From NCBI RefSeq assembly GCF_028464145.1, contig NZ_JAQPCG010000008.1, positions 62,001 through 126,000 of the forward strand: a stretch of 64,000 bases of DNA, written 5' to 3'. Positions 28,030 to 38,610 of this stretch are shown piece by piece. This stretch comes from Maribacter sp. PR1. GTDB lineage: Bacteria > Bacteroidota > Bacteroidia > Flavobacteriales > Flavobacteriaceae. The translations under genes were made by a program, and so were the position numbers. Each line of letters begins with the position of its first letter. Positions within the stretch are counted from its first letter, which is position 1. The notes beneath the pieces are model-generated. The model did not search any database. It had not been told where the DNA came from and saw only the letters and a list, made by a program, of their open reading frames with translations.

Positions 28030-30501
28030 TCAAATTTTGAATTGTAAAGTGGTATAGAAAGTTCTGGGTTCCGCAGGTATAATACCCGGGCCTGGATATC
28101 CAGTTGCCCTTCGAGTAAAATAGCTATTATTCAATACATTATTGATTCCTGCCTCGAGCTTCCATTTTTTATAGGAGTAGGACAAGGAAAAGTCCAAAAT
28201 ATCGTATGCCGAAATTTCACCTTCTATACCCCTTTGATTATCGTTTATATCCCGAGGTGCGTTGGTTGCATCCGTAAACTGTTTAGACAAATAGGTATAT
28301 TGTAAACTACCCAAGAGATTTCCATATCCAAAATTGAGCCCTGTCTTTAGATTGACGGCTGGACTAAATTCAACCTTTTTACCTTCTACATTTGTACTTT
28401 CCGATGATATATATTCAGAATCCGTCAATGCCAAGTTCATGAAATAGTTCATTTTCAATTTCTCCTCCGCTGGAAAAAAAGTTTCCTTAAGACTCCAGTT
28501 TGAAAAGCTTTCCAGACCATAAATAAACGCAGTCCCTATGTTACCTCGGAAACGAATGACCCTACCCGTTTCCACTTCTTCCCCGATTGCATTGACACGG
28601 GTTTCATTTTTTAGAATCTCGCCCAATCTATTATCATACAAAAGTCCAAATGCACTTACATCATAGGATAAAATGTTCTCGTACCTTCCCCGAAACCCGA
28701 CATCGGAAGTAAAACCATTTTCATCACTGATATTTTCATCGATTTGAAACGAGGGATTTACTACACGTATATCGCTAAAGGTAACCGATCGATAATTTTG
28801 CGAGAAATTACCATAGAATTCAATGTTTGTATTTAGTTTGTAAGTGGCACCAAGACCAAGAAGAAGGAACGTCCTATTGAACTCCCTATTATCTTGCACA
28901 TCTTCGTTCAACAAAGGGTTACCCGCCAAGTCCAGTACAATATTCTTGTAGCTGCCCATACTTTGTGTTTTTATATGTTCCAACCTAAATCCCGGGGTAA
29001 GAGTCAACTTGGAAGTAACATTAAAAATATTCTCGCCAAAGAAGGCGAGGTTTGCATTTGGAAATTCAAATTCAGATTGTCTTTCATAGTTTGGAAAGTC
29101 TTCATCGGCAAAGTTAAAATCGGCATTGGTGTCAGCAGACCCAGGTCCCTGTCTTTGATCGTTGTTAGTCCTATAAATTTTAGACCCTAAAAGAAGAGCT
29201 GACTGTGAATCTCCCAGCTTATATCTTGTTAGTAAACGGGCCTCTGCACCCCAGTTTTTAAAGTTGTCCACCAATAATTCCCTGGGTTCCTCGAGGTCGT
29301 CCGGTTGGGATACCCTATTGGTCCTAAAACCCAATGCACTTCTAGAGGCATCCAATCCAAATACATTTAGACTAAAATCGGTATTTGTGGAAAATTTATG
29401 GTCGAAGCGTGCCGAATATAATTTCCAACTTACATCGAACCAGTTTCTACTTCTGTTGCTAAAGCTGGGGTCTTGGATGAACTGGGCATCTGTAAGTCCA
29501 CCCGGCTGTTGTGCCAAATAATCAAGAAAAGTGGCCTCGAGGGTCAGTTTTGTCCTATCTGAAACTTGATAACCCAGATGCGCATAGTAATTTCGGCTAT
29601 TATAATTCGAATTTGGCCGAAAACCGTTTCCTTCCTTATAGTTAAAATAGGTATAGTAACTCAATTTTCCTACAGTTCCACCTAGGCTGTTAAAGCTTGT
29701 TTTGAGGTCATAAGAACCTAAAGTCTGTCTACTCACCCATTCTATCTTCTTGGAAGGATTGGGTGCTTTAAACTTAAAGTTGACGAGCCCACCGAATTGT
29801 GTACCATACTGTAGCGAAGCGGCCCCTCTAACGACCTGTATTTCCTCTAGTGCTTCCGCCGGAGGTGTATAGTAGCTTTCGGGATATCCCAAAACATCGG
29901 CACTGATATCGTAACCGTTCTGCCTGGTATTGAAGTTGGCCGTTCTATTAGGATCCAGTCCCCTTCCTCCAATATTTAATTGGAGTCCCGCATCTCCATT
30001 ATCATAGATGTTTAAACCGACTACCTGACTGTAAACCTGTCTTGCGTTGTTGGCCGCCAAATTTCCTGTGATACCTTCCAACAAAACGACCTCACTTTTC
30101 TTTCCCGCATATATGGCCGTGCCATCCACTTTTTTTAGTTGTTTAAGCTCAAATATTTGCTCTCGCTTTTGGGAGAGTACCACTTCCGATAAATTTTGGG
30201 TCTTCAGATGCTCCAGTCTTAAATTAAGATTGGTGTCTTCCCTAAGCGTCAATTCCCTCTCTTGGATTTCAAACTCATAGGCAAAGATTACCAAGGAGTA
30301 ATCTCCCGGTGTTATATTTTCAAAAAGAAAGCGTCCATCCAAATCCGTTGTCTCCAAACGCTCTAACTGTTTCATATAAATTTCCGCATCAACTAAGGGA
30401 ACGCCTTCCTTATCCACAATTGTACCGGAAAAATTAACTTGTCCAAATACTGGAAATGTTATTAAAAACAATAGTATGTAGCTATATTCCCTTAATCTCA
30501 T
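28030..30501 (-). CDS. TonB-dependent receptor (FecA-like, carboxypeptidase-regulatory-like N-domain)
   Basis: 823 residues. The signal peptide ends FPVFGQ. A carboxypeptidase-D regulatory-like domain follows (about 22-100, FSGTIVDKEGVPLVDAEIYM), then a plug (about 115-245) with LQLNIGGRGLDPNR and EIQVVRGAASLQYGTQFGG, then a 22-strand-type barrel rich in aromatic strand ends and finishing FYTTLQFKI. The plug sequence is of the ferric-citrate receptor type. It would move a metal chelate or metallophore through the outer membrane using TonB energy. It is the last gene of a four-gene operon and overlaps the HTTM gene by 20 nt, indicating translational coupling. The substrate is inferred from its partners, not proven. 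Confidence 0.93.
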   Translation of the reverse strand: MRLREYSYILLFLITFPVFGQVNFSGTIVDKEGVPLVDAEIYMKQLERLETTDLDGRFLFENITPGDYSLVIFAYEFEIQERELTLREDTNLNLRLEHLKTQNLSEVVLSQKREQIFELKQLKKVDGTAIYAGKKSEVVLLEGITGNLAANNARQVYSQVVGLNIYDNGDAGLQLNIGGRGLDPNRTANFNTRQNGYDISADVLGYPESYYTPPAEALEEIQVVRGAASLQYGTQFGGLVNFKFKAPNPSKKIEWVSRQTLGSYDLKTSFNSLGGTVGKLSYYTYFNYKEGNGFRPNSNYNSRNYYAHLGYQVSDRTKLTLEATFLDYLAQQPGGLTDAQFIQDPSFSNRSRNWFDVSWKLYSARFDHKFSTNTDFSLNVFGLDASRSALGFRTNRVSQPDDLEEPRELLVDNFKNWGAEARLLTRYKLGDSQSALLLGSKIYRTNNDQRQGPGSADTNADFNFADEDFPNYERQSEFEFPNANLAFFGENIFNVTSKLTLTPGFRLEHIKTQSMGSYKNIVLDLAGNPLLNEDVQDNREFNRTFLLLGLGATYKLNTNIEFYGNFSQNYRSVTFSDIRVVNPSFQIDENISDENGFTSDVGFRGRYENILSYDVSAFGLLYDNRLGEILKNETRVNAIGEEVETGRVIRFRGNIGTAFIYGLESFSNWSLKETFFPAEEKLKMNYFMNLALTDSEYISSESTNVEGKKVEFSPAVNLKTGLNFGYGNLLGSLQYTYLSKQFTDATNAPRDINDNQRGIEGEISAYDILDFSLSYSYKKWKLEAGINNVLNNSYFTRRATGYPGPGIIPAEPRTFYTTLQFKI

Positions 30502-31849
30502 CTTTAAACGGTGTTATCCAATTTTTATGTAAAAACGATTCCTTTTGACTTGTCAAATCTATATTAGGGTCTATGAATTCCGTACTTAATCTCCCATTGA
30601 GGCTCACCTTACAATCCACATAAACCTGAACATTCTTATGGCCATCCTTCTCAAAATGATTTTTTAAGAAATGAGCATATTCCAAAATAAAATCCGGTTG
30701 AAATGCCATTTGTTTTTCCTGAAAAGGGGTCAAAAAATCGGAGTTGTCCACATAGAACCAGCGTCCTGTATCCCCATTGACAATCTTAAACTGTGCGTAG
30801 CCTGTTTTCTCCATCAACATAACCCGCCAAGAAAAGCGATATCCTTCCTCGGTCCAAAAAAGTTCTCCGGGATAAAGAAGATATCTAAAAGGAAATGTCA
30901 ATTGGATTAGGAAGAAGGTTGAAATTACCCCCAACACAAGTTTTCTCCTTAATGGTGTTAGGTACTTGAATTCCTTGTTATTTCTAAAACGACCTACGTC
31001 AATTTTGAAAATTTTTGCCACTCCGTTGAGGATTCTTTGGTGAACATCCGTATCAAAAAATATGAGTGCTGACACGATCATGATATACGGAAACATACCG
31101 ATGGGAAACAAAACTCGGGTAAGCACATGGAAGGTAATTACCAATAAAAATGCATAAGGGCGGGTCCTTTTCACCAATAGTAAAAACGGTATGGCCAAAT
31201 CGTATAAAGCCCCGGACCAACTGAACGCATATTGTAACCATTCCTGCCCCAACAAACCCCCTATGAACGGGATATCAAATTTTGATGGCAACCATATCTT
31301 TAAGGGCATGGCCCTAAACAACCAATCGGAATTTAATTTAGCCAGCCCTGCATAAAAGTAGACGATGCCCAATAGTAATTTTACACTGTTCACCGTCCAT
31401 GCCGGTATATATTGAAAGGCCTTGTTCTTAATTTTCCAAGCATCGATTGAAAAGTAGGTGTTCGCCGGCAAAAAAATCATTAGAAAACTGAGTATACTGA
31501 TGAAATAATAATGGTTCAAGTAGGTAGTCTTGTCCATTAGCTCTATATAGGTAAAACTTAGGAAGAAAATTACAATCGATATTCTATAACGATAACCTAG
31601 GGCTACAAATAAAGTGGCCAGCCCACAAATAAAGAAAATACCATAAGTATAAATGCCTAGAGGTTTAACCCAATCAAAACCATAATAGGAAAAAAAGAAT
31701 TTGGGCTGGATGTACAATTTATCTATCCATCCATAGCTCCAGAATCTAATAATGCTAAAAAGCATCATTAAACCAAAAAAAATGCGAAAGACCGCCAAAG
31801 GGGCGGCCTCCACTGGAGCTTTAATGTATTTCTCAATAATTGACCCCAT
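30482..31849 (-). CDS. HTTM (vitamin K-dependent gamma-carboxylase-like) membrane protein
   Basis: 455 residues. The N-terminal part (about 1-300) has several membrane helices and the HTTM pattern: APLAVFRIFFGLMM near the start, TTYLNHYYFISILSFLMIF near 105-125, and an amphipathic region with YFYAGLAKLNSDWL near 165-180. A mainly soluble C-terminal region (about 310-455) contains EGYRFSWRVMLMEKTGYAQF. HTTM proteins are bacterial relatives of the vitamin K-dependent gamma-carboxylase; bacterial substrates are largely unknown. Its ATG overlaps the imelysin stop as TAATG, and its own 3' end overlaps the TonB receptor start, so it is firmly part of the operon. Confidence 0.88.
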   Translation of the reverse strand: MGSIIEKYIKAPVEAAPLAVFRIFFGLMMLFSIIRFWSYGWIDKLYIQPKFFFSYYGFDWVKPLGIYTYGIFFICGLATLFVALGYRYRISIVIFFLSFTYIELMDKTTYLNHYYFISILSFLMIFLPANTYFSIDAWKIKNKAFQYIPAWTVNSVKLLLGIVYFYAGLAKLNSDWLFRAMPLKIWLPSKFDIPFIGGLLGQEWLQYAFSWSGALYDLAIPFLLLVKRTRPYAFLLVITFHVLTRVLFPIGMFPYIMIVSALIFFDTDVHQRILNGVAKIFKIDVGRFRNNKEFKYLTPLRRKLVLGVISTFFLIQLTFPFRYLLYPGELFWTEEGYRFSWRVMLMEKTGYAQFKIVNGDTGRWFYVDNSDFLTPFQEKQMAFQPDFILEYAHFLKNHFEKDGHKNVQVYVDCKVSLNGRLSTEFIDPNIDLTSQKESFLHKNWITPFKDEIKGI

Positions 31850-32982
31850 TAGTCACCGTCTGCGTCCACAAAATCGATACTGATGCTCATTGCCGAAACC
31901 ATATCCACCTTTAACAAAGGAACCACTTTCTGCACTTCATCATAAGCCAGCAACATATCGGTGGGGGGATTATTATTCTCAATCTCACCTATAAATGTCG
32001 ACAGACCCAGAACAGCCTCCCTGGCCAAATCAAACTGTTCGTTGATCAATAGGGCTAGGTCCTCTCCGTTTTTAACTGAATTTAATTTGTTCAGATAAGT
32101 GGCCAAGCTTTCACCGTTCTCATTGGAACCAAAAGATTTGCCGTTAAAAAAATTTTGAACAGCATTTAGTCCTTCCAAAAACAGGGTTTTGGAAATATCG
32201 CCTTTATAATAGGCCTCAACATTTTGAGGCAAAGGGCTACCAGAAAATACCCCAAGTGGTATACCCATCTTACCCGCTCTTAGGTATTTTTCAAAATAGA
32301 AAATATAATCATTGACCAACCTATCCACCGAAGCTGTTGCCGATGCTCCATCATTGGCAACGAAGGTATCCCTATAACCGCCTGTCCATTCGCTCAAAAC
32401 ACTATCCGTAAGATTTACCATGTCATCTACTACGGAATTTAAATAAGCGAATAGTGCTTCTTTTTCCGTGCCATTATAGCGAGTAACAATGGCAGCATCA
32501 TTTTCCCCCAGGCCATTAATAAGATAATCCAAGGCGGGGAAACCTTTTGCATCCCTATTGGAGGAAAGTGAAAGGTCATAATTATCATTGATGATAAAAC
32601 TTTCTATTTTTTCGCTATCCGTAGGATAGATATTCATGTTCAATTGGTAACCGAGGCTTTCTGCCGGACCAATCTCAAACATGGCCACATGCTGCCAAGT
32701 CGTATATGCCGCAATCCATGATAAGCGCAATTCAATGAGGTTAGTTTCATTTACATCGGATTGGAAGGCCTCCAAAGAAGCTTTTAAGGTTGCCAAATCC
32801 GAAGAGAACTCGGTATAGGCGGGTATAATTATATTGTCCGCCCAATTAACGAGCATGCTACTTCTTTCAAACCTCTCCCCTTCTCCGGGAGATGGGTTTG
32901 GTTCTCCCTCTCCTATGCTATCATCCGAACATGCCCCTATTATAACAAGGATACATATTATACCAAATATTTTTTTCATCAT
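31849..32982 (-). CDS. Imelysin-family lipoprotein
   Basis: 377 residues. The lipoprotein signal has lipobox IIGAC (Cys18). The all-helical imelysin domain begins near 43 with LVNWADNIIIPAYTEF, typical of the family, and contains LSWIAAYTTWQHVAMFEIGP. The family GxHxxE motif appears as GFPALD (147-152), so His and Glu are replaced by Pro and Asp. Imelysin and EfeO-like proteins are associated with iron uptake. It is probably anchored in the outer membrane or periplasm next to the TonB receptor of the same operon. The start lies 53 nt after the DUF4856 gene, and the stop overlaps the HTTM start by one base. Confidence 0.9.
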   Translation of the reverse strand: MMKKIFGIICILVIIGACSDDSIGEGEPNPSPGEGERFERSSMLVNWADNIIIPAYTEFSSDLATLKASLEAFQSDVNETNLIELRLSWIAAYTTWQHVAMFEIGPAESLGYQLNMNIYPTDSEKIESFIINDNYDLSLSSNRDAKGFPALDYLINGLGENDAAIVTRYNGTEKEALFAYLNSVVDDMVNLTDSVLSEWTGGYRDTFVANDGASATASVDRLVNDYIFYFEKYLRAGKMGIPLGVFSGSPLPQNVEAYYKGDISKTLFLEGLNAVQNFFNGKSFGSNENGESLATYLNKLNSVKNGEDLALLINEQFDLAREAVLGLSTFIGEIENNNPPTDMLLAYDEVQKVVPLLKVDMVSAMSISIDFVDADGD

Positions 32983-33035
32983 AACTTTTATCTATAACCT
33001 TAGTATTGAAAAAACTGAATTAAACTTTATTTCTT

Positions 33036-34325
33036 TTATTCTGCGGCCTGTGCTACCGTAAAGTCAAACCTAGCGGCGATTGCCTCAGAAATTGCATCCA
33101 AAGTATCCGGGGTTACATCCCAAAGTCCATTTTCACCATCTCCCAAAAGACTGGTCAAAAAAGCTTCAGTTTCCGATTTTGAAAAATAAGGCTCCTCTGT
33201 ATTTGGATTCCTAGTAAATTGGAGACTATAGATGAAACCATAGGCCTCTGAAAGGGAATGAAAAGCTCCACCATAATTGGGGGTTTCCAAGGATAATTTT
33301 GATTTGCCTCCTTGCAAGTAATAAATGGCACGGATGGCGATTACTTTTGAAATATTTTCCCTAATGATATTGGCCTGTTCATCCCTTACATCATATTTTT
33401 TGGCGACGATAGCCGCACGACCAAGCTTAAAAGCTTGGAATACTTCATCCGCGACACCAGAAAAGTCATCGTCAGATTCTGCTCTTTCAATGTATTCGTT
33501 CAAGAAACTGTCAGCCCCTAAATCTGCATTCGGATCGGAGGGATCCGTATTTAAGCCGTAAGCATATCCGTAAGCTTCATCCCATTTATGCTCCATAGTG
33601 GTGTAAGGTTTACCTTCTTCCACAACCCCCCCGTCATTGTTACCAACATTTTCACCCTCGTCCAAAACCGATGTACTTAAATAGTTGTTCAACATCTGGT
33701 CCGCCATTAAACTACCGATCAATGACTTGGCAAATAGCTGGTTGTATTCCAAACCTTGACCACTTATATACCTTGTTCGCTCCCCATCCGCTATTTGTCC
33801 TGCCGTACCTGGTGCAGCGACTACTTCCCAATTTGGATATACCTCGTTAACCTGTGCACTAATGAAGCCATCCACCGTTGTTCTAATCATAGCTTGATCC
33901 GTAGCATTGGTAGAAAAATAATCTGCCGAAGCTGCAACCTTGCTACGTAAACTTTTATCGGAAGCATTTAAGAAGGCATCCTCAAAGTCGTCCGAGCCTT
34001 CCTCATGTGCGAACATACCTTTTAACTTTTTTAATGAATTAGTTGGAACATTAAAATTGGAAAGTAGTTCCTGACCCATTTTAATTCTGGTGGTTTGTCC
34101 ACTAAAGTTTACCGTATTTTCACCATTTCTGAAAAAAACATAGATTTCTGGGTTTTCAATCGCAGTTTCGCAAGGTGCACAACCACCACCACAATCAATA
34201 CCGGTTTCGTCTCCGTTCATAACACCATCTGCACAGGTTGTTATATCTATACCGTCATCATCGGAACTACAGGAAGCAAAAAAGAGTGTGGAAAGAACAG
34301 TTATTATATAAGTAATTTTTCTCAT
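33036..34325 (-). CDS. DUF4856 domain lipoprotein
   Basis: 429 residues. Lipobox FFASC (Cys19) is followed by a short Cys cluster (Cys31, 45, 49, 52) in a Gly/Asp-rich segment with NGDETGIDCGGGC, resembling a small disulfide or metal-binding module. The rest is an alpha-helical DUF4856 domain (about 60-429). It has GKPYTTMEHKWDEAYGYAYG near 240 and YYLQGGKSKLSL near 345. The pattern of long helices recalls imelysin-like folds, but homology is not claimed. It is the first gene of the operon, directly behind a good promoter. Function is unknown; the context points to metal binding or delivery to the TonB receptor. Confidence 0.88.
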   Translation of the reverse strand: MRKITYIITVLSTLFFASCSSDDDGIDITTCADGVMNGDETGIDCGGGCAPCETAIENPEIYVFFRNGENTVNFSGQTTRIKMGQELLSNFNVPTNSLKKLKGMFAHEEGSDDFEDAFLNASDKSLRSKVAASADYFSTNATDQAMIRTTVDGFISAQVNEVYPNWEVVAAPGTAGQIADGERTRYISGQGLEYNQLFAKSLIGSLMADQMLNNYLSTSVLDEGENVGNNDGGVVEEGKPYTTMEHKWDEAYGYAYGLNTDPSDPNADLGADSFLNEYIERAESDDDFSGVADEVFQAFKLGRAAIVAKKYDVRDEQANIIRENISKVIAIRAIYYLQGGKSKLSLETPNYGGAFHSLSEAYGFIYSLQFTRNPNTEEPYFSKSETEAFLTSLLGDGENGLWDVTPDTLDAISEAIAARFDFTVAQAAE

Positions 34326-34368
34326 GATTTCTATTTAAGTTTATTTAGACTTGTTATAAATAATATTA

Positions 34369-34400
34369 CAAACCTAAAACAACTTTTGAAAAACCACAAG
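34369..34400 (-). promoter_or_regulatory. Promoter of the DUF4856-imelysin-HTTM-TonB receptor operon
   Basis: On the minus strand CTTG (34400-34397), a 20-nt spacer and TAGGTTTG (34376-34369) match the TTTG-N20-TAnnTTTG Bacteroidota pattern with one mismatch. Transcription would start near 34362, about 37 nt before the first ATG. No Fur-box is recognised. Confidence 0.65.
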
Positions 34401-34544
34401 GTTATTTGTAATAAATCTAAATAAATTTAATGGTGGTATAGAGAAGGTTTGGTTTTACCTACAAAAAACCAGTAAGCATCCTCTGCCATATGGTCTCCTT
34501 GAGTAAAGGATTTAGATATACATGGATTTACGGAAATACTATTG

Positions 34545-35720
34545 CTATTGAGTGGAAATCCTATTCTCAAAAAAGAATACCCCATTTTTGTTAGATATTA
34601 CTATATCCGGTTTACCGTCATTAGTAATATCCTGTGCCACTATATTAAGACCAGCACCTGAATCATCGTCCAATACGTGCTCCTTAAAGTATGGTGCAAT
34701 TCCCGGAGTAAACTCAAACCATAAAAGATATGGAGTATCGGCATCGCCTTCATCCCTGCCGTTGTGTGCCAAAAAACGCTTTCCTGTTATATAATCTTCC
34801 CGACCATCACCATTAAGGTCAGCCATTATAGAAGAATGGGTCTGGGCGGTAGTTTCGCTCATCAAATAAGTCTTAAAGCTACCGTCCTGAAGTTGCTCAT
34901 GCCACCAGATTCCCAATTTATGGGCCGATGCACTTACGACATCCTTCTGGCCATCGCCGTTTACATCCAATACCTGCATATGGGAACAAGGTTCCCCCAG
35001 GCTTGTTTTATGAAATTTCCAGTCCCCGGATGATTTATCTTTTTTTCCTTCAAACCAACCATCTGCAATTACTACATCTTTTATACCGTCTTTATTCACG
35101 TCCCCATATCCTATTCCATGAGAATACCTGTCCGTTCCAGGAACATTTTCAGCACTTAATGCATGTCTTTTCCACTCTTTTTCTCCACTTTTCAAGGGTG
35201 CTTGCAACCATACAATTTGTTTTTTTTCTACATCCCCACATAAGATATCCAAGCGACCATCCCCATCTATGTCCACAAAGCCTGGTGATTCATTCGCTAT
35301 ACCCATGGAATCGGCAATCATGTGTTTCTCCCACTGTTGATTTTCTTGCTTGGGGTTTTCAAACCAAAAACCCGCCTTTCCCGGATAATCAATAATAACC
35401 ACATCGTCCCATCCATCTAAATTTACATCCATTCCCAAATTTAGAAACGACTCGCTATACTCTTCATAGGGATCAAACACCCTTGACGGTGCCAATTCAT
35501 GTTTTTCCCAACTTGGTGCCTTAAACCAATAATACCCGGCGATGATATCCAATAGGCCATCTTTGTTTAAATCGGCAACTGCCACACCTTCGGATATAAA
35601 ATCCCGTGTCAATACCGTTTTCTTGAAATTACCCTCTTCAACATTCTGTCCAAATAGGGAACTCGTAGTTATCATACAAAACAACCCGTATTGTAGCATG
35701 GCAAACGTTACTTTTTTCAT
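34545..35720 (-). CDS. Secreted FG-GAP/VCBS repeat protein
   Basis: 391 residues. The signal peptide ends SLFGQ. Seven or so beta-propeller blades follow, each with a Ca-binding DxNxDGxxD-like loop: VADLNKDGLLDIIAG, DVNLDGWDDVVIIDY, DIDGDGRLDILCGD, DVNKDGIKDVVIADG, DVNGDGQKDVVSAS, DLNGDGREDYITGK, DITNDGKPDIVIS. This is a calcium-stabilised periplasmic or surface propeller used for binding rather than obvious catalysis. It is the last gene of the DUF1080/cupredoxin-dehydrogenase operon, 22 nt behind its neighbour. Such proteins often accompany PVC-type dehydrogenases and may bind the same sugar polymer. Confidence 0.9.
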   Translation of the reverse strand: MKKVTFAMLQYGLFCMITTSSLFGQNVEEGNFKKTVLTRDFISEGVAVADLNKDGLLDIIAGYYWFKAPSWEKHELAPSRVFDPYEEYSESFLNLGMDVNLDGWDDVVIIDYPGKAGFWFENPKQENQQWEKHMIADSMGIANESPGFVDIDGDGRLDILCGDVEKKQIVWLQAPLKSGEKEWKRHALSAENVPGTDRYSHGIGYGDVNKDGIKDVVIADGWFEGKKDKSSGDWKFHKTSLGEPCSHMQVLDVNGDGQKDVVSASAHKLGIWWHEQLQDGSFKTYLMSETTAQTHSSIMADLNGDGREDYITGKRFLAHNGRDEGDADTPYLLWFEFTPGIAPYFKEHVLDDDSGAGLNIVAQDITNDGKPDIVISNKNGVFFFENRISTQ

Positions 35721-35742
35721 CTTTTAATACTCTTTTTAGATA

Positions 35743-38610
35743 TTATTCGGTCAATAGGGAATCGATCATACTACCATACACTATGGCCTTTTCCGAATTC
35801 TTATTTTTAAATTTTGTCAATATACTTCTTGAGGTAACATTCTTATCGGAGGCAATCTTTCTAAGGGTATATTCCAATATCGTACTGAATTTGGATTTTT
35901 CAGCCAAATCAAGCACCCTTTCCGCATCTAACTCTGTCATGGGTTCCGCGGCATACCAAAGCATCAACGGAAGATTGTGATCGTCTACATCCTCTTCACG
36001 TTGTAGCAATGCTCCCAAAACCTCCCAGCGCTTGGATTCTTCCATACGTTGCATTGCCGACGCAAGGTACAACCTCACCAAGGCGGAATCTTCATCTTTC
36101 GCCATATCTACAAAAAGTTGCAAGGTTTCATCTGAAACTTTTTTGTCCTCCATGGCAAGTTGTACCGCCCAGCTTCTCATATATTCATCCTGGTTTCCTA
36201 AAAGCTCATTTACGTAATTTTCATCCAAACCATTGGTTACCTGAAGTGTCCAAAGTGCCCTCAACCTTTTGGTAATATCCGGGTTTTCATTGATAATTTT
36301 CTTTAGGGCTATATAGATTTCAGGATTGCCTCCACGCTCCTGCAAAATAGTCCTTGCTTGGCGAACGTACCAATCATTACTATGTAACTGATAATTTACC
36401 AGTTCCATATCCGAAGCCTTGTATAAATCTTCTTGAACCCATGTATCGTTTTTGTGGGAAATTTTAAAGATACGTCCCAAAGTTTTGTCATGAACATCAG
36501 GATTTGGGCTATGACATTGATTCTGGTCGTACCAATCGATTACATATACGGACCCACTGGCATCATATTTAAAATTCAGCCACTGTGACCAAGAGTCGTT
36601 CATGATTATAAAATCCTTTCTATGTGATGCCACGTAACCCGAGCCTTCCCTGGTAAGCTGGTCATTGTTCATAATGGCTCCGTTAATATTGTTCATGAAT
36701 ATGGTATTGCGGTATTCTTCGGGCCAAGTATCTCCCCCTAAATAGATCATTGCGCCTGCATGCGCATGTCCGCCACCGGCAGCGGCTGACCTAAAGTTAC
36801 CGGCATGAGGCCCCCTATCACCTAAATAATGCCTATGATCGACAATAGTTTTTATATCATCATAGGTATATGGGTTAAAATGCTCGCCCCCTTGGCGCTC
36901 GTACCTTGCACCCTGAATAACGTGATACATATGAGGAATAACACATACCGTTATAAATGGGTGACCGTAATCGTTGAAATCAATTCCCCAAGGATTGCTT
37001 GTACCCTGTGAAAAAACTTCAAACTCATGTTTTGTTGGATGATACCTCCATACGGCAGCATTCACTTTTGTTCTTTCGTCCTCCGGTGTACCCGGTTTTC
37101 CCACCTTAGAGTGTGTAAAGACCCCATGAACCCCGTAAAGCCAACCATCCGGTCCCCAACGGAGATTGTTCAACACCTCATGTGTATCATCCAAACCCCA
37201 ACCATCGAGCAATATTTCCGGCTCTCCTTTAGGTTCATCATTTTCAAAATCGGTAGGGATAAACATTAGATATGGTGCGGCTCCCAACCAAACACCCCCC
37301 ATCCCCACTTCAATACCACTGGCCATATTGAGGCCTTCCATAAAGACTTTTCTTTTATCCAAAGTACCATCGCCATTGGTGTCCTCAAAAATAAGAATGC
37401 GGTCACGACCTTTTCCTTCTTCAGCCGGAACAGGATATGTATGACCTTCAACTACCCAAAGTCGTCCACGAGCATCTATGGTAAAGCTTATGGGACGTAC
37501 CACATCCGGTTCAGAGGCAGCAAGGGTAATTTCAAATCCAGCGGGCAAGGCCATGGCCTTTGCCGCCTCCTTACCCGAAAGACCAGCATTGATTATTGGG
37601 TCTAATGGCGGCATTACAATAATATCCTCTTGTTTCAATTCATTAACAAATTGGGGTCTCACCGGATAAAACAAAAAATCGTCAAAACTAATATGGGCCA
37701 ATTCATCCGGCCCGATGTAAGGTATCGGAGAAAGTCCTGTTTCATTATCTATAATTCTGATGAATATTTCCTTATCCAGATAATTGGTTAAATCAACAAC
37801 AACGGGTTGCATATTGGTCCTCCCTTGTCCAGTTGTTTTAAATATCACCTCACCGTCATCGGTTGAGACCAATTCTACCCTTGTTTCCTCCATAGCTCCA
37901 CCGGAAACCTTAAAGGAGGCGAAAGGATGTATGACAGTAAAAGGTACCGAAGTCAATGTCCCTGTTTTTTCAGAATCTTTGGTGCCTCCGCTACTTACAA
38001 AGTATTCGCCGTCAAACCCAATCTTGGTGTTTAATTTATGAATGGAATCAGCCCTAGTAAAAAGTGGATTTTTAAAGGCATCGCCTTGGGCTTTCCAATC
38101 ATTCAAATTTCCTCTTTCAAAGCCAACATTTACCGGTTTTCCATTTTTAAAGGGAACGATCCCGGCAATCACCGAAGTGCTAAAATTACCATCTACTATC
38201 TTGAATTCGCCAACCATTCCGGCAGCACGGTGACCCGGAACCGTACAGAAATATGTGTCGTCAGAATTTGCCCAAAAGGTAATACTGGCACTCTTTCCAA
38301 CTTCGTTCAAAGTTTTACTTGTTATCCCCAAGTTTTCCATGGATATATCATGCGTCATATTCTCCATATTAATTATGGTAATACGAACACGATCTCCTTT
38401 GTTGGCTTTTAACGTCGGGTTTCTAGTTCCATCTGGAGCAAAATACCCGAGCATACTGGCCTCCAAAGTATATTCCCTATTGATTACCGTAGAATCCCTT
38501 TCTATACTTTGAACGATTTTCTCTTTTCCTTCGTTCTGCTTGCAGGAAGCCACGAACACAAAAGCTAGAATTACTTTTATGGAAAGCTTTGCCACCTTAT
38601 GTTTTTTCAT
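35743..38610 (-). CDS. Cupredoxin-PVC-type dehydrogenase-HEAT fusion lipoprotein
   Basis: 955 residues. Lipobox VASC (Cys23) is followed by a plastocyanin-like cupredoxin domain (about 45-140) with a type 1 copper site: His87, Cys122, His127, Met132 (FCTVPGHRAAGM). A galactose-binding-like beta domain follows (about 150-335). A PVC-type membrane-bound dehydrogenase beta-propeller comes next (about 350-740, GFEITLAASEPDVVRPI, HRHYLGDRGPHAGNFR, GGGHAHAGAMIYLGG), with HEAT-like helices to the end. No CxxCH haem motif is present, unlike many PVC-type relatives. I infer an envelope oxidoreductase whose copper domain takes over the electron-transfer role. It is co-transcribed with a DUF1080 gene upstream and the FG-GAP gene downstream. 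Confidence 0.88.
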   Translation of the reverse strand: MKKHKVAKLSIKVILAFVFVASCKQNEGKEKIVQSIERDSTVINREYTLEASMLGYFAPDGTRNPTLKANKGDRVRITIINMENMTHDISMENLGITSKTLNEVGKSASITFWANSDDTYFCTVPGHRAAGMVGEFKIVDGNFSTSVIAGIVPFKNGKPVNVGFERGNLNDWKAQGDAFKNPLFTRADSIHKLNTKIGFDGEYFVSSGGTKDSEKTGTLTSVPFTVIHPFASFKVSGGAMEETRVELVSTDDGEVIFKTTGQGRTNMQPVVVDLTNYLDKEIFIRIIDNETGLSPIPYIGPDELAHISFDDFLFYPVRPQFVNELKQEDIIVMPPLDPIINAGLSGKEAAKAMALPAGFEITLAASEPDVVRPISFTIDARGRLWVVEGHTYPVPAEEGKGRDRILIFEDTNGDGTLDKRKVFMEGLNMASGIEVGMGGVWLGAAPYLMFIPTDFENDEPKGEPEILLDGWGLDDTHEVLNNLRWGPDGWLYGVHGVFTHSKVGKPGTPEDERTKVNAAVWRYHPTKHEFEVFSQGTSNPWGIDFNDYGHPFITVCVIPHMYHVIQGARYERQGGEHFNPYTYDDIKTIVDHRHYLGDRGPHAGNFRSAAAGGGHAHAGAMIYLGGDTWPEEYRNTIFMNNINGAIMNNDQLTREGSGYVASHRKDFIIMNDSWSQWLNFKYDASGSVYVIDWYDQNQCHSPNPDVHDKTLGRIFKISHKNDTWVQEDLYKASDMELVNYQLHSNDWYVRQARTILQERGGNPEIYIALKKIINENPDITKRLRALWTLQVTNGLDENYVNELLGNQDEYMRSWAVQLAMEDKKVSDETLQLFVDMAKDEDSALVRLYLASAMQRMEESKRWEVLGALLQREEDVDDHNLPLMLWYAAEPMTELDAERVLDLAEKSKFSTILEYTLRKIASDKNVTSRSILTKFKNKNSEKAIVYGSMIDSLLTE

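Follow-up and report, generated by a model that had tools for sequence, protein, structure and literature searches.

A four-gene operon and its conservation

The window, the 64-kb stretch of DNA analyzed here, carries on its minus strand four tightly joined genes behind one promoter. The earlier note had read this layout from the sequence, and gene coordinates, Pfam matches and the promoter match confirmed it; Pfam also confirmed the four products as the note had named them, namely a DUF4856 protein, an imelysin, an HTTM protein related to vitamin K-dependent carboxylases and a TonB receptor. In the direction of transcription, the features are:

34404..34422, minus strand: Fur box 1, adjoining the -33 element on its upstream side, 14.7 bits
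34369..34400, minus strand: promoter CTTG-N20-TAGGTTTG, the sole match in the 64-kb window
34343..34361, minus strand: Fur box 2, covering the presumed start of transcription, 15.7 bits
33036..34325, minus strand: DUF4856 lipoprotein, 429 aa, first gene; Pfam DUF4856 (PF16148)
31849..32982, minus strand: imelysin-like lipoprotein, 377 aa, IPPA-like; Pfam Peptidase_M75 (PF09375), imelysin fold
30482..31849, minus strand: membrane protein with HTTM and VKGC lumenal domains (Pfam), 455 aa, homologue of human GGCX
28030..30501, minus strand: TonB-dependent receptor, 823 aa, with an N-terminal carboxypeptidase-regulatory-like domain (Pfam)

By their coordinates, a 53-nt gap lies between the DUF4856 and imelysin genes, one base belongs both to the stop codon of imelysin and to the start codon of HTTM (TAATG), and the HTTM and receptor genes overlap by 20 nt.

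Loss of this gene order in related genomes had been named in advance as evidence against the note's reading; we looked for it, and the order is kept. All four genes lie in order at 73 of 80 HTTM loci, a proportion that leans high because these are the best 80 of 571 relatives, chosen by likeness to HTTM. Two of the seven exceptions are cut by contig ends and one begins near a contig end. A 148-genome sample of the phylum gives a fairer count, and there 22 of 24 DUF4856 genes have an imelysin and an HTTM gene adjoining (genes counted as neighbors within 3 kb, or within 4 kb in the case of DUF4856 and HTTM). The overlap of the HTTM and receptor genes has a median of 20 nt in the 73 loci. Two Roseivirga loci hold DUF4856 and HTTM only, and one genome (G108) has an operon-like HTTM gene with no partner gene adjoining. 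Because one locus stands in both of our sets (L029 = L144), the 107 imelysins, 111 operon HTTM proteins, 97 upstream regions and 98 DUF4856 rows counted below are 106, 110, 96 and 97 distinct ones.

The 148-genome sample contains 41 imelysins, excluding one match under the family cut-off (G105:C3). Thirty lie beside an HTTM gene, ten beside DHOR, a di-haem peroxidase, and none beside both; the remaining one is at a contig end. This mutually exclusive neighborhood of HTTM and di-haem peroxidase is new here. Only the neighborhood is exclusive: 12 of the 30 cluster genomes hold DHOR elsewhere, so HTTM is no genome-wide substitute for it. The genome studied here has no DHOR.

Promoter, Fur boxes and iron

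The promoter match is weak on its own, because shuffles of the window often hold one (mean 0.40; at least one match in 32 of 100), and we rejected CTTG-N20-TAnnTTTG alone as promoter evidence. Its recurrence was examined in 97 upstream regions, comprising those of the window, of 20 further loci and of those 76 of the 80 HTTM loci in which DUF4856 is the first gene. The Bacteroidota promoter form TTG-N19-23-TAnnTTTG lies upstream of DUF4856 in 69 of the 97, against 2.0 expected, so the promoter is real.

A matrix built from Riemerella Fur boxes was scored in the 64-kb window on both strands. The score of box 1 was reached at four positions and that of box 2 at two, each count including the box itself. 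Among the 97 upstream regions, 93 have a Fur box at p<0.05 (60 shuffles) and 92 have one of at least 12 bits, versus 17 of 305 control gene starts. Box 1 starts 46 nt before the -7 element at the window locus, and relatives have the same spacing: among the 25 regions listed, the distance from the start of box 1 to the -7 element is 45–47 nt, and box 2 starts 14–26 nt past that element, except in one region that has no second box. A Fur-box pattern searched through the whole genome found 14 distinct places, two of them at this operon; since box 1 of the window was known when the pattern was drawn up, its match follows by design, and that of box 2 does not. We inspected eight of the 12 other places, in seven stretches: three stretches lead into TonB receptor or PepSY_TM genes, and in two the site lies within an open reading frame. 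PepSY_TM genes occur at two other Fur-box loci of this genome.

A similar set of genes is known from Riemerella anatipestifer, where RAYM_09779–RAYM_09794 are among the Fur-regulated genes and rise in iron restriction (PMC5609570, Table 4). As here, a receptor, a “vitamin K-dependent gamma-carboxylase”, an imelysin and a hypothetical protein have consecutive locus tags; the hypothetical protein, from its place, is probably DUF4856. The text of PMC5609570 at hand does not treat these genes as a system. In that study, their rise in low iron persists in a fur mutant (2.70–3.07), and loss of fur changes them only modestly when iron is plentiful (ratios 1.36–1.93; probably log2); a second iron-responsive route may therefore act as well. 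Two Fur boxes flanking the promoter at conserved distances, together with the Riemerella listing, make iron control of the operon well supported, and a lack of iron seems to turn the four genes on. The same evidence supports the metal uptake suggested by the earlier note and narrows it to iron.

In the literature searched, mainly open-access and without preprints, we found nothing on DUF4856 and nothing joining any two of imelysin, HTTM and DUF4856; imelysin, TonB-dependent receptor and vitamin K-dependent together led only to PMC5609570. We considered the haem receptors of F. psychrophilum as a comparison and dropped them, as the part of PMC9331221 at hand gives no sign of these genes.

The four proteins

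The receptor has a TonB barrel (Pfam E 9.3e-26) with a plug and a carboxypeptidase-regulatory domain. The description “FecA-like” did not hold beyond a weak match: the receptor scores 95.9 bits against NCBIfam FecA, with an equivalog cut-off of 1100, and 121.4 bits against the siderophore subfamily, with a cut-off of 223.5. In the PDB it weakly matches YncD/PqqU, which is named as a pyrroloquinoline quinone transporter, at E about 2e-7, and no others at E 0.001 or better.

Peptidase_M75 is the only Pfam domain found in the imelysin (E 3.1e-26; 93.1 bits against a cut-off of 23.5). Its fold aligns to ICMP (7xrx) with a Z of 32.5 over 321 residues (rmsd 2.4), to IPPA (3pf0) with 30.9 and to EfeO with 20.7. 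The imelysin-type fold is shared with the EfeUOB/M ferrous iron transporters (Z 20 to 21 to EfeO, EfeM and Algp7); this genome has no FTR1-type permease (PF03239) such as the EfeU of EfeUOB. Where GxHxxE is expected, the window imelysin has GFPALD. The motif His is lost in all 107 HTTM-linked imelysins, whereas GxHxxE is present in nine of ten imelysin matches from nine DHOR-linked stretches. In the IPPA/PA4372 branch the motif is GxxxxE, with the His lost and the Glu kept; the window protein has Pro in place of the His, as in IPPA, but its motif Glu is Asp (as in 98 of the 107), so we call it IPPA-like. E231 and E256 are Glu in 107/107. An Asp-Gly-Asp C-terminus is also found in 107/107 (106 distinct); we dropped the idea that it is tied specially to HTTM, since the solved IPPA protein (3pf0) ends likewise, as does an additional imelysin from L148, one of the DHOR-linked stretches.

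Imelysins have been linked to iron elsewhere (PMC3143127). The PA4370–PA4373 genes of P. aeruginosa and the LruB locus of Leptospira combine imelysins, Fur or iron control and a peroxidase-like partner gene (PMC3143127, PMC13066512). Unlike those systems, the present operon has HTTM in the place of the di-haem peroxidase and an imelysin with GFPALD and the Asp-Gly-Asp end.

The DUF4856 lipoprotein matches PF16148 with E 4.6e-145 (483.5 bits; cut-off 22.3), and its AlphaFold model is predicted to have a mostly helical body (pLDDT 89.8). It has two similar HxxxE motifs, H246/E250 and H356/E360. Both pairs are found in 93 of 98 relatives and E360 is Glu in 98/98, counts that leave out two rows outside HTTM clusters (L043 and L061). 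Foldseek found no match for the model in the PDB at E 0.001 or better (best 1.7). Two candidate relationships were rejected: alpha-catenin bundles reached a Z of 7.9 at most, within the unspecific range for helical models, and a profile comparison with imelysins aligned only 25 columns around the signal peptide. PADLOC had no match for HTTM, imelysin or DUF4856.

The HTTM protein matches Pfam HTTM (E 4e-81, 272.9 bits) and VKGC_lumenal_dom (E 1.2e-61, 207.5 bits), both with cut-offs of 27.7, and human GGCX chains at E about 1e-43. Similar to GGCX, it has the HTTM and lumenal domains, the catalytic lysine and the vitamin K pocket. The roles of the base K218 and of the pocket residues in GGCX are described in PMC12589487. 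K171 of HTTM corresponds to K218, H113 to H160 and N112 to N159, and all three are kept in 111/111 operon HTTM proteins. The pocket residues W223, G259, F286, F294 and F299 are likewise identical in 111/111, with M401 replaced by Val throughout.

In contrast to human GGCX, the window protein is shorter, and its Glu pocket is incomplete: N158 is Leu in 111/111, R436 is Gln in 107/111, and the position of Y395 varies between Tyr (82 of the 111) and Phe (29). The coupling residue K217 is Ala in 111/111, and both cysteines of the C99–C450 disulphide are Phe in the window protein. The alignment runs only as far as human residue 505 and so misses the arch domain and most of the second propeptide lobe, as PMC12589487 delimits them. 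VKOR is present in four of the 30 cluster genomes and lacking from 26, and this genome has none either; compared with 28 of 118 other genomes (Fisher p 0.32), it shows no link to HTTM either way, and we dropped it as such. On the earlier note's suggestion that HTTM modifies a carboxyl or Glu side chain, the evidence is divided: the base, the quinone pocket and two Glu-holding residues never vary, but the protein lacks K217, N158, R436, the disulphide and most of the second propeptide lobe, and VKOR is mostly absent.

A second HTTM clade, sampled in six genomes, has the same base and pocket in 6/6 and no imelysin neighbors; a pocket of this kind is therefore not peculiar to iron uptake. In one locus of that clade (L002), read by eye, the neighbor is ribF. 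A bacterial GGCX homologue in Leptospira is also mentioned in PMC4555120.

A proposed role for HTTM in iron acquisition

We favor a Fur-repressed iron-acquisition operon in which a menaquinol-using HTTM protein is the redox partner in the place of a haem peroxidase, a reading to which we give about an even chance. Its iron part is firm, and a reaction of HTTM in iron uptake is what we infer. Under iron shortage, Fur would leave both boxes around the promoter and the four genes would be made together. The TonB receptor would carry an iron complex across the outer membrane, and the DUF4856 and imelysin lipoproteins may bind or pass on iron or its complex. HTTM would sit in the inner membrane, facing the periplasm, with a menaquinol cofactor deprotonated by K171 as base; menaquinone is the quinone of these bacteria. 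It would serve as redox partner where other imelysin systems have a di-haem or DyP-type peroxidase, and would help to reduce or free iron, which could then enter via a ferrous carrier such as FeoB, present in this genome. We know of no HTTM protein that is a ferric reductase. The exchange with di-haem peroxidase speaks for a redox role of HTTM more than for Glu modification. Against such a role, the equivalents of N159 and H160, the residues by which human GGCX holds the Glu side chain, are invariant as well, and HTTM retains the lumenal domain that an enzyme modifying proteins would need. The Roseivirga pairs of DUF4856 and HTTM, and the HTTM of G108 without partners, also count against it.

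We tentatively propose, at somewhat less than even probability, that either HTTM under iron shortage uses menaquinol to carboxylate Glu of DUF4856 or imelysin to iron-binding Gla, or electrons of menaquinol, deprotonated by the GGCX-type lysine, go to ferric iron and not to oxygen, making HTTM a haem-free ferric reductase. Taken by itself, a Fur-controlled iron uptake system in which HTTM is a menaquinol-dependent carboxylase, turning Glu into a Gla metal site in DUF4856, imelysin or the receptor, seems unlikely. It would account for the invariant equivalents of K218, H160 and N159, for the Tyr or Phe at Y395, for the lumenal domain and for the lone DUF4856–HTTM pairs of Roseivirga, and it is in keeping with the invariant E360 of DUF4856 and E231 and E256 of imelysin. 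The same enzyme would have to work with the substitutions at K217, N158 and R436, with the arch domain and the greater part of the second propeptide lobe absent, and in most cluster genomes without VKOR to recycle the epoxide.

Rather improbable, in our view, is that HTTM helps the lipoproteins or the receptor to mature or assemble, as in surface export, with no part in iron chemistry and no Glu-modifying activity. Its gene sits between the lipoprotein and receptor genes, with the median 20-nt overlap onto the latter, and SdpB of Bacillus, an HTTM family member, is required for production of the SDP toxin. In this phylum, a run of acidic residues behind the lipobox Cys is a surface-export signal, and by a simple lipobox pattern at least two Asp/Glu occur at +2 to +6 in 85 of 100 DUF4856 proteins and in 55 of 106 imelysins with a lipobox. 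A maturation factor leaves unexplained the invariant quinone pocket and catalytic base, as well as the exclusive choice between HTTM and di-haem peroxidase as neighbor.

It is very improbable that the operon works for some other metal or for a ligand without metal, with the Fur boxes reflecting general stress control only, as might be read from a receptor that falls under every iron-siderophore cut-off and finds only YncD/PqqU in the PDB and from the lack of specific haem or ferric ion binding by the imelysins PIBO and IPPA in thermofluor assays (PMC3143127), because the Fur boxes recur in 93 of 97 regions at a conserved position, the Riemerella genes are listed as Fur-regulated (PMC5609570) and imelysins elsewhere are iron-linked.

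The literature searched gives no settled answer on the role of bacterial relatives of vitamin K carboxylase. Here, one such relative is linked with a defined physiology, iron shortage, has constant partner genes and takes part in an exchange with a haem peroxidase that can be tested, which provides a genetic handle in marine flavobacteria and offers a function for DUF4856, a family so far without one. If either the Gla or the ferric-reductase reading is true, bacterial vitamin K chemistry would serve iron. The operon may also reveal what the fold behind animal blood clotting did at an earlier stage of its chemistry.

Gene order and conservation of the operon

Pfam gave firm names to all four genes of the operon:

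33036-34325, minus strand, DUF4856 gene
31849-32982, minus strand, imelysin gene
30482-31849, minus strand, HTTM gene
28030-30501, minus strand, TonB receptor gene

Coordinates and Pfam matches bore out the four-gene minus-strand unit described in the earlier note, together with its joints: a 53-nt gap between DUF4856 and imelysin, a one-base TAATG overlap between imelysin and HTTM, and a 20-nt overlap between HTTM and receptor. The single promoter which that note placed before the four genes also stands, inside a 219-nt gap that parts the operon from upstream FG-GAP/haem-binding genes. That upstream region (34545-38610, on the operon's strand) holds an FG-GAP repeat protein, and a plastocyanin-type (copper-binding) domain and a PVC-type haem-binding CxxCH region occur there in one protein; guaB, read by eye, lies downstream of the operon.

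In a sample of 148 Bacteroidota genomes, we found DUF4856 in 24, HTTM in 42 and imelysin in 37, with imelysin and HTTM adjoining DUF4856 in 22 of its 24 matches. Among 40 stretches read, the receptor immediately follows HTTM in all 29 that have neighbouring imelysin and HTTM genes (L027-L042 and L044-L056). The more distant members have a diverged DUF4856-like gene before imelysin, and only some of these genes are detected by Pfam; our own profile matched 9 of the 10 in loci L047-L056, two of the nine being part of its seed, and gave no match to the gene in L049. Comparing gene order in relatives, as had been proposed earlier, showed the order to be fixed: among the best 80 of 571 relatives, chosen by HTTM likeness, 73 of the 80 named loci keep all four genes in order, with a median HTTM-receptor spacing, in these complete loci, of a 20-nt overlap. 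The other seven of these 80 were three loci lacking DUF4856 (one of which, L131, starts at a contig start), two cut loci (L070 and L143) and two Roseivirga loci (L098 and L104). The Roseivirga loci carry only DUF4856 and HTTM, with neither imelysin nor receptor, so that DUF4856 may be the gene most closely tied to HTTM.

Fur boxes and evidence for iron control

We searched for Fur boxes with a matrix built from 11 boxes published for Riemerella, a list that does not contain this operon. In the window, two boxes flank the promoter:

34404-34422, Fur box
34343-34361, Fur box

Of the 97 regions lying upstream of DUF4856, 93 had a box at p<0.05 (60 shuffles each) and 92 had one of at least 12 bits, a score reached at 17 of 305 other gene starts; 73 of the 97 had at least two boxes. 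In the 25 regions listed, the first box begins 45-47 nt ahead of the -7 element; the second, absent from one region, begins 14-26 nt beyond it. Across the whole genome, which has five FUR-family matches, the pattern matched 16 times, at 14 places, and the reversed control 6 times. In seven other Fur-box stretches read, sites lay 29-93 nt before genes, and in two of the stretches they fell inside reading frames. The genes behind these sites encode a TonB receptor, a TonB receptor with a PepSY_TM gene, a PepSY_TM protein, an AraC regulator and a SPOR protein. The Fur-box-like site at L159:2113-2156 precedes an AraC-family regulator by 43 nt, in divergent orientation to a gene read by eye as hemA.

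In Riemerella anatipestifer, a published study lists four consecutive locus tags (receptor, "vitamin K-dependent gamma-carboxylase", imelysin and hypothetical protein) as Fur-regulated, with low- versus high-iron ratios of 2.11-3.07 in wild type (PMC5609570); the paper's threshold suggests that these are log2 values. Because the fur mutant still shows the low-iron rise (2.70-3.07), another iron-responsive route may act too. For one species, a published table already gives the gene membership and the iron control. The finding is real and goes beyond what the earlier note could know: the operon is widely conserved, with good support for control by iron.

HTTM in the place of a di-haem peroxidase

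Among 41 imelysins above the cut-off in the 148 genomes, 30 adjoin HTTM, 10 adjoin a DUF1111 di-haem peroxidase (DHOR), none adjoins both, and one lies at a contig end. This exclusive choice of partner concerns neighbours, not genomes; DHOR proteins, mostly members of a lower-scoring group, occur elsewhere in 12 of the 30 genomes with the HTTM arrangement. Genome G108 carries an HTTM that resembles the operon type but has no partner gene alongside (L057:6915-8285), and both of its imelysins adjoin DHOR.

The imelysin motif GxHxxE is kept in 9 of 10 imelysin matches in nine DHOR-linked stretches, the tenth being an additional IPPA-like copy with a DGD end. The window's protein, modelled with an imelysin fold, has GFPALD instead, and alignment found the motif His in none of 107 HTTM-linked imelysins. 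All 107 (106 distinct) end exactly in Asp-Gly-Asp, with identity to the window's copy as low as 27% (alignment of 29). This tail, encoded at 31852-31860, is of low confidence in our model; the solved imelysin-like protein IPPA (3pf0) likewise ends in DGD, and in its structure the C-terminal tail, residues 384-389, is disordered (PMC3143127). The tail is conserved despite disorder in IPPA.

The HTTM protein aligns to residues 55-505 of human GGCX, for which published residue roles assign K218 as catalytic base, W223, G259, F286, F294 and F299 to the vitamin K pocket, and N159/H160 to the Glu side chain (PMC12589487). The pocket is retained: every one of the 111 operon HTTMs (110 distinct) has the human residue at all of these positions. 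Substituted are K217 (Ala, 111/111), N158 (Leu, 111/111), M401 (Val, 111/111) and R436 (Gln, 107/111), and, in contrast to human GGCX, most of the second propeptide lobe and the arch domain are missing. VKOR occurs in 4 of the 30 HTTM-imelysin genomes and is absent from that of Maribacter sp. PR1. Quinone chemistry is thus probably kept, whereas it is doubtful whether the protein has a classical site for a protein substrate or relies on epoxide recycling. The operon HTTMs group in a single clade (support 0.86) that includes the partnerless G108 copy. A second clade, away from imelysin, keeps base and pocket as well as N159 and H160 in 6 of 6 sampled, but differs from the operon type at positions 158 (Asn), 401 (Met) and 395 (His). 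To this clade belongs a second HTTM/VKGC-lumenal protein of Maribacter sp. PR1 (L002:1483-2802; G000:C1:644458-645234), right after a gene read by eye as ribF.

DUF4856 is predicted with good confidence (pLDDT 89.8) as a mainly helical protein, and comparison with the PDB gave no clear match. It has two similar motifs spaced by 110 residues, H246-x-x-D-E250-A-Y-G-Y and H356-x-x-S-E360-A-Y-G-F, and both His-Glu pairs occur in 93 of 98 relatives; at i, i+4 on predicted helices, two His and two Glu would suit a candidate metal site. After the lipobox, residues 31-52 (gene 33036-34325) form a linker with NGDETGIDCGGGCAPC; of the 100 DUF4856 proteins gathered, only 11 have such a DCGG linker.

Proposed role in iron uptake

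We propose that the receptor would import an iron complex, the lipoproteins would bind iron or its ligand, HTTM would free or reduce the iron with menaquinol, and ferrous iron would enter by FeoB, which is present in the genome; FTR1 is absent from it. The proposed redox role for HTTM draws on the exchange with di-haem peroxidase, on the lack of VKOR in most carriers, and on the PepSY_TM genes that two more of the genome's Fur-box loci hold. A role of HTTM as glutamate carboxylase, which draws on N159, H160 and the lumenal domain, seems less likely; sequence by itself leaves the choice between the two undecided.

In the literature searched we did not meet the partner exchange, the DGD tail, the enzyme residues or the DUF4856 motifs. 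Our main new observation is that HTTM stands beside imelysin in the neighbour place held by the peroxidase in imelysin/di-haem peroxidase iron systems. The Maribacter operon represents a variant form of imelysin iron system and includes an unexplained enzyme of the vitamin K type.
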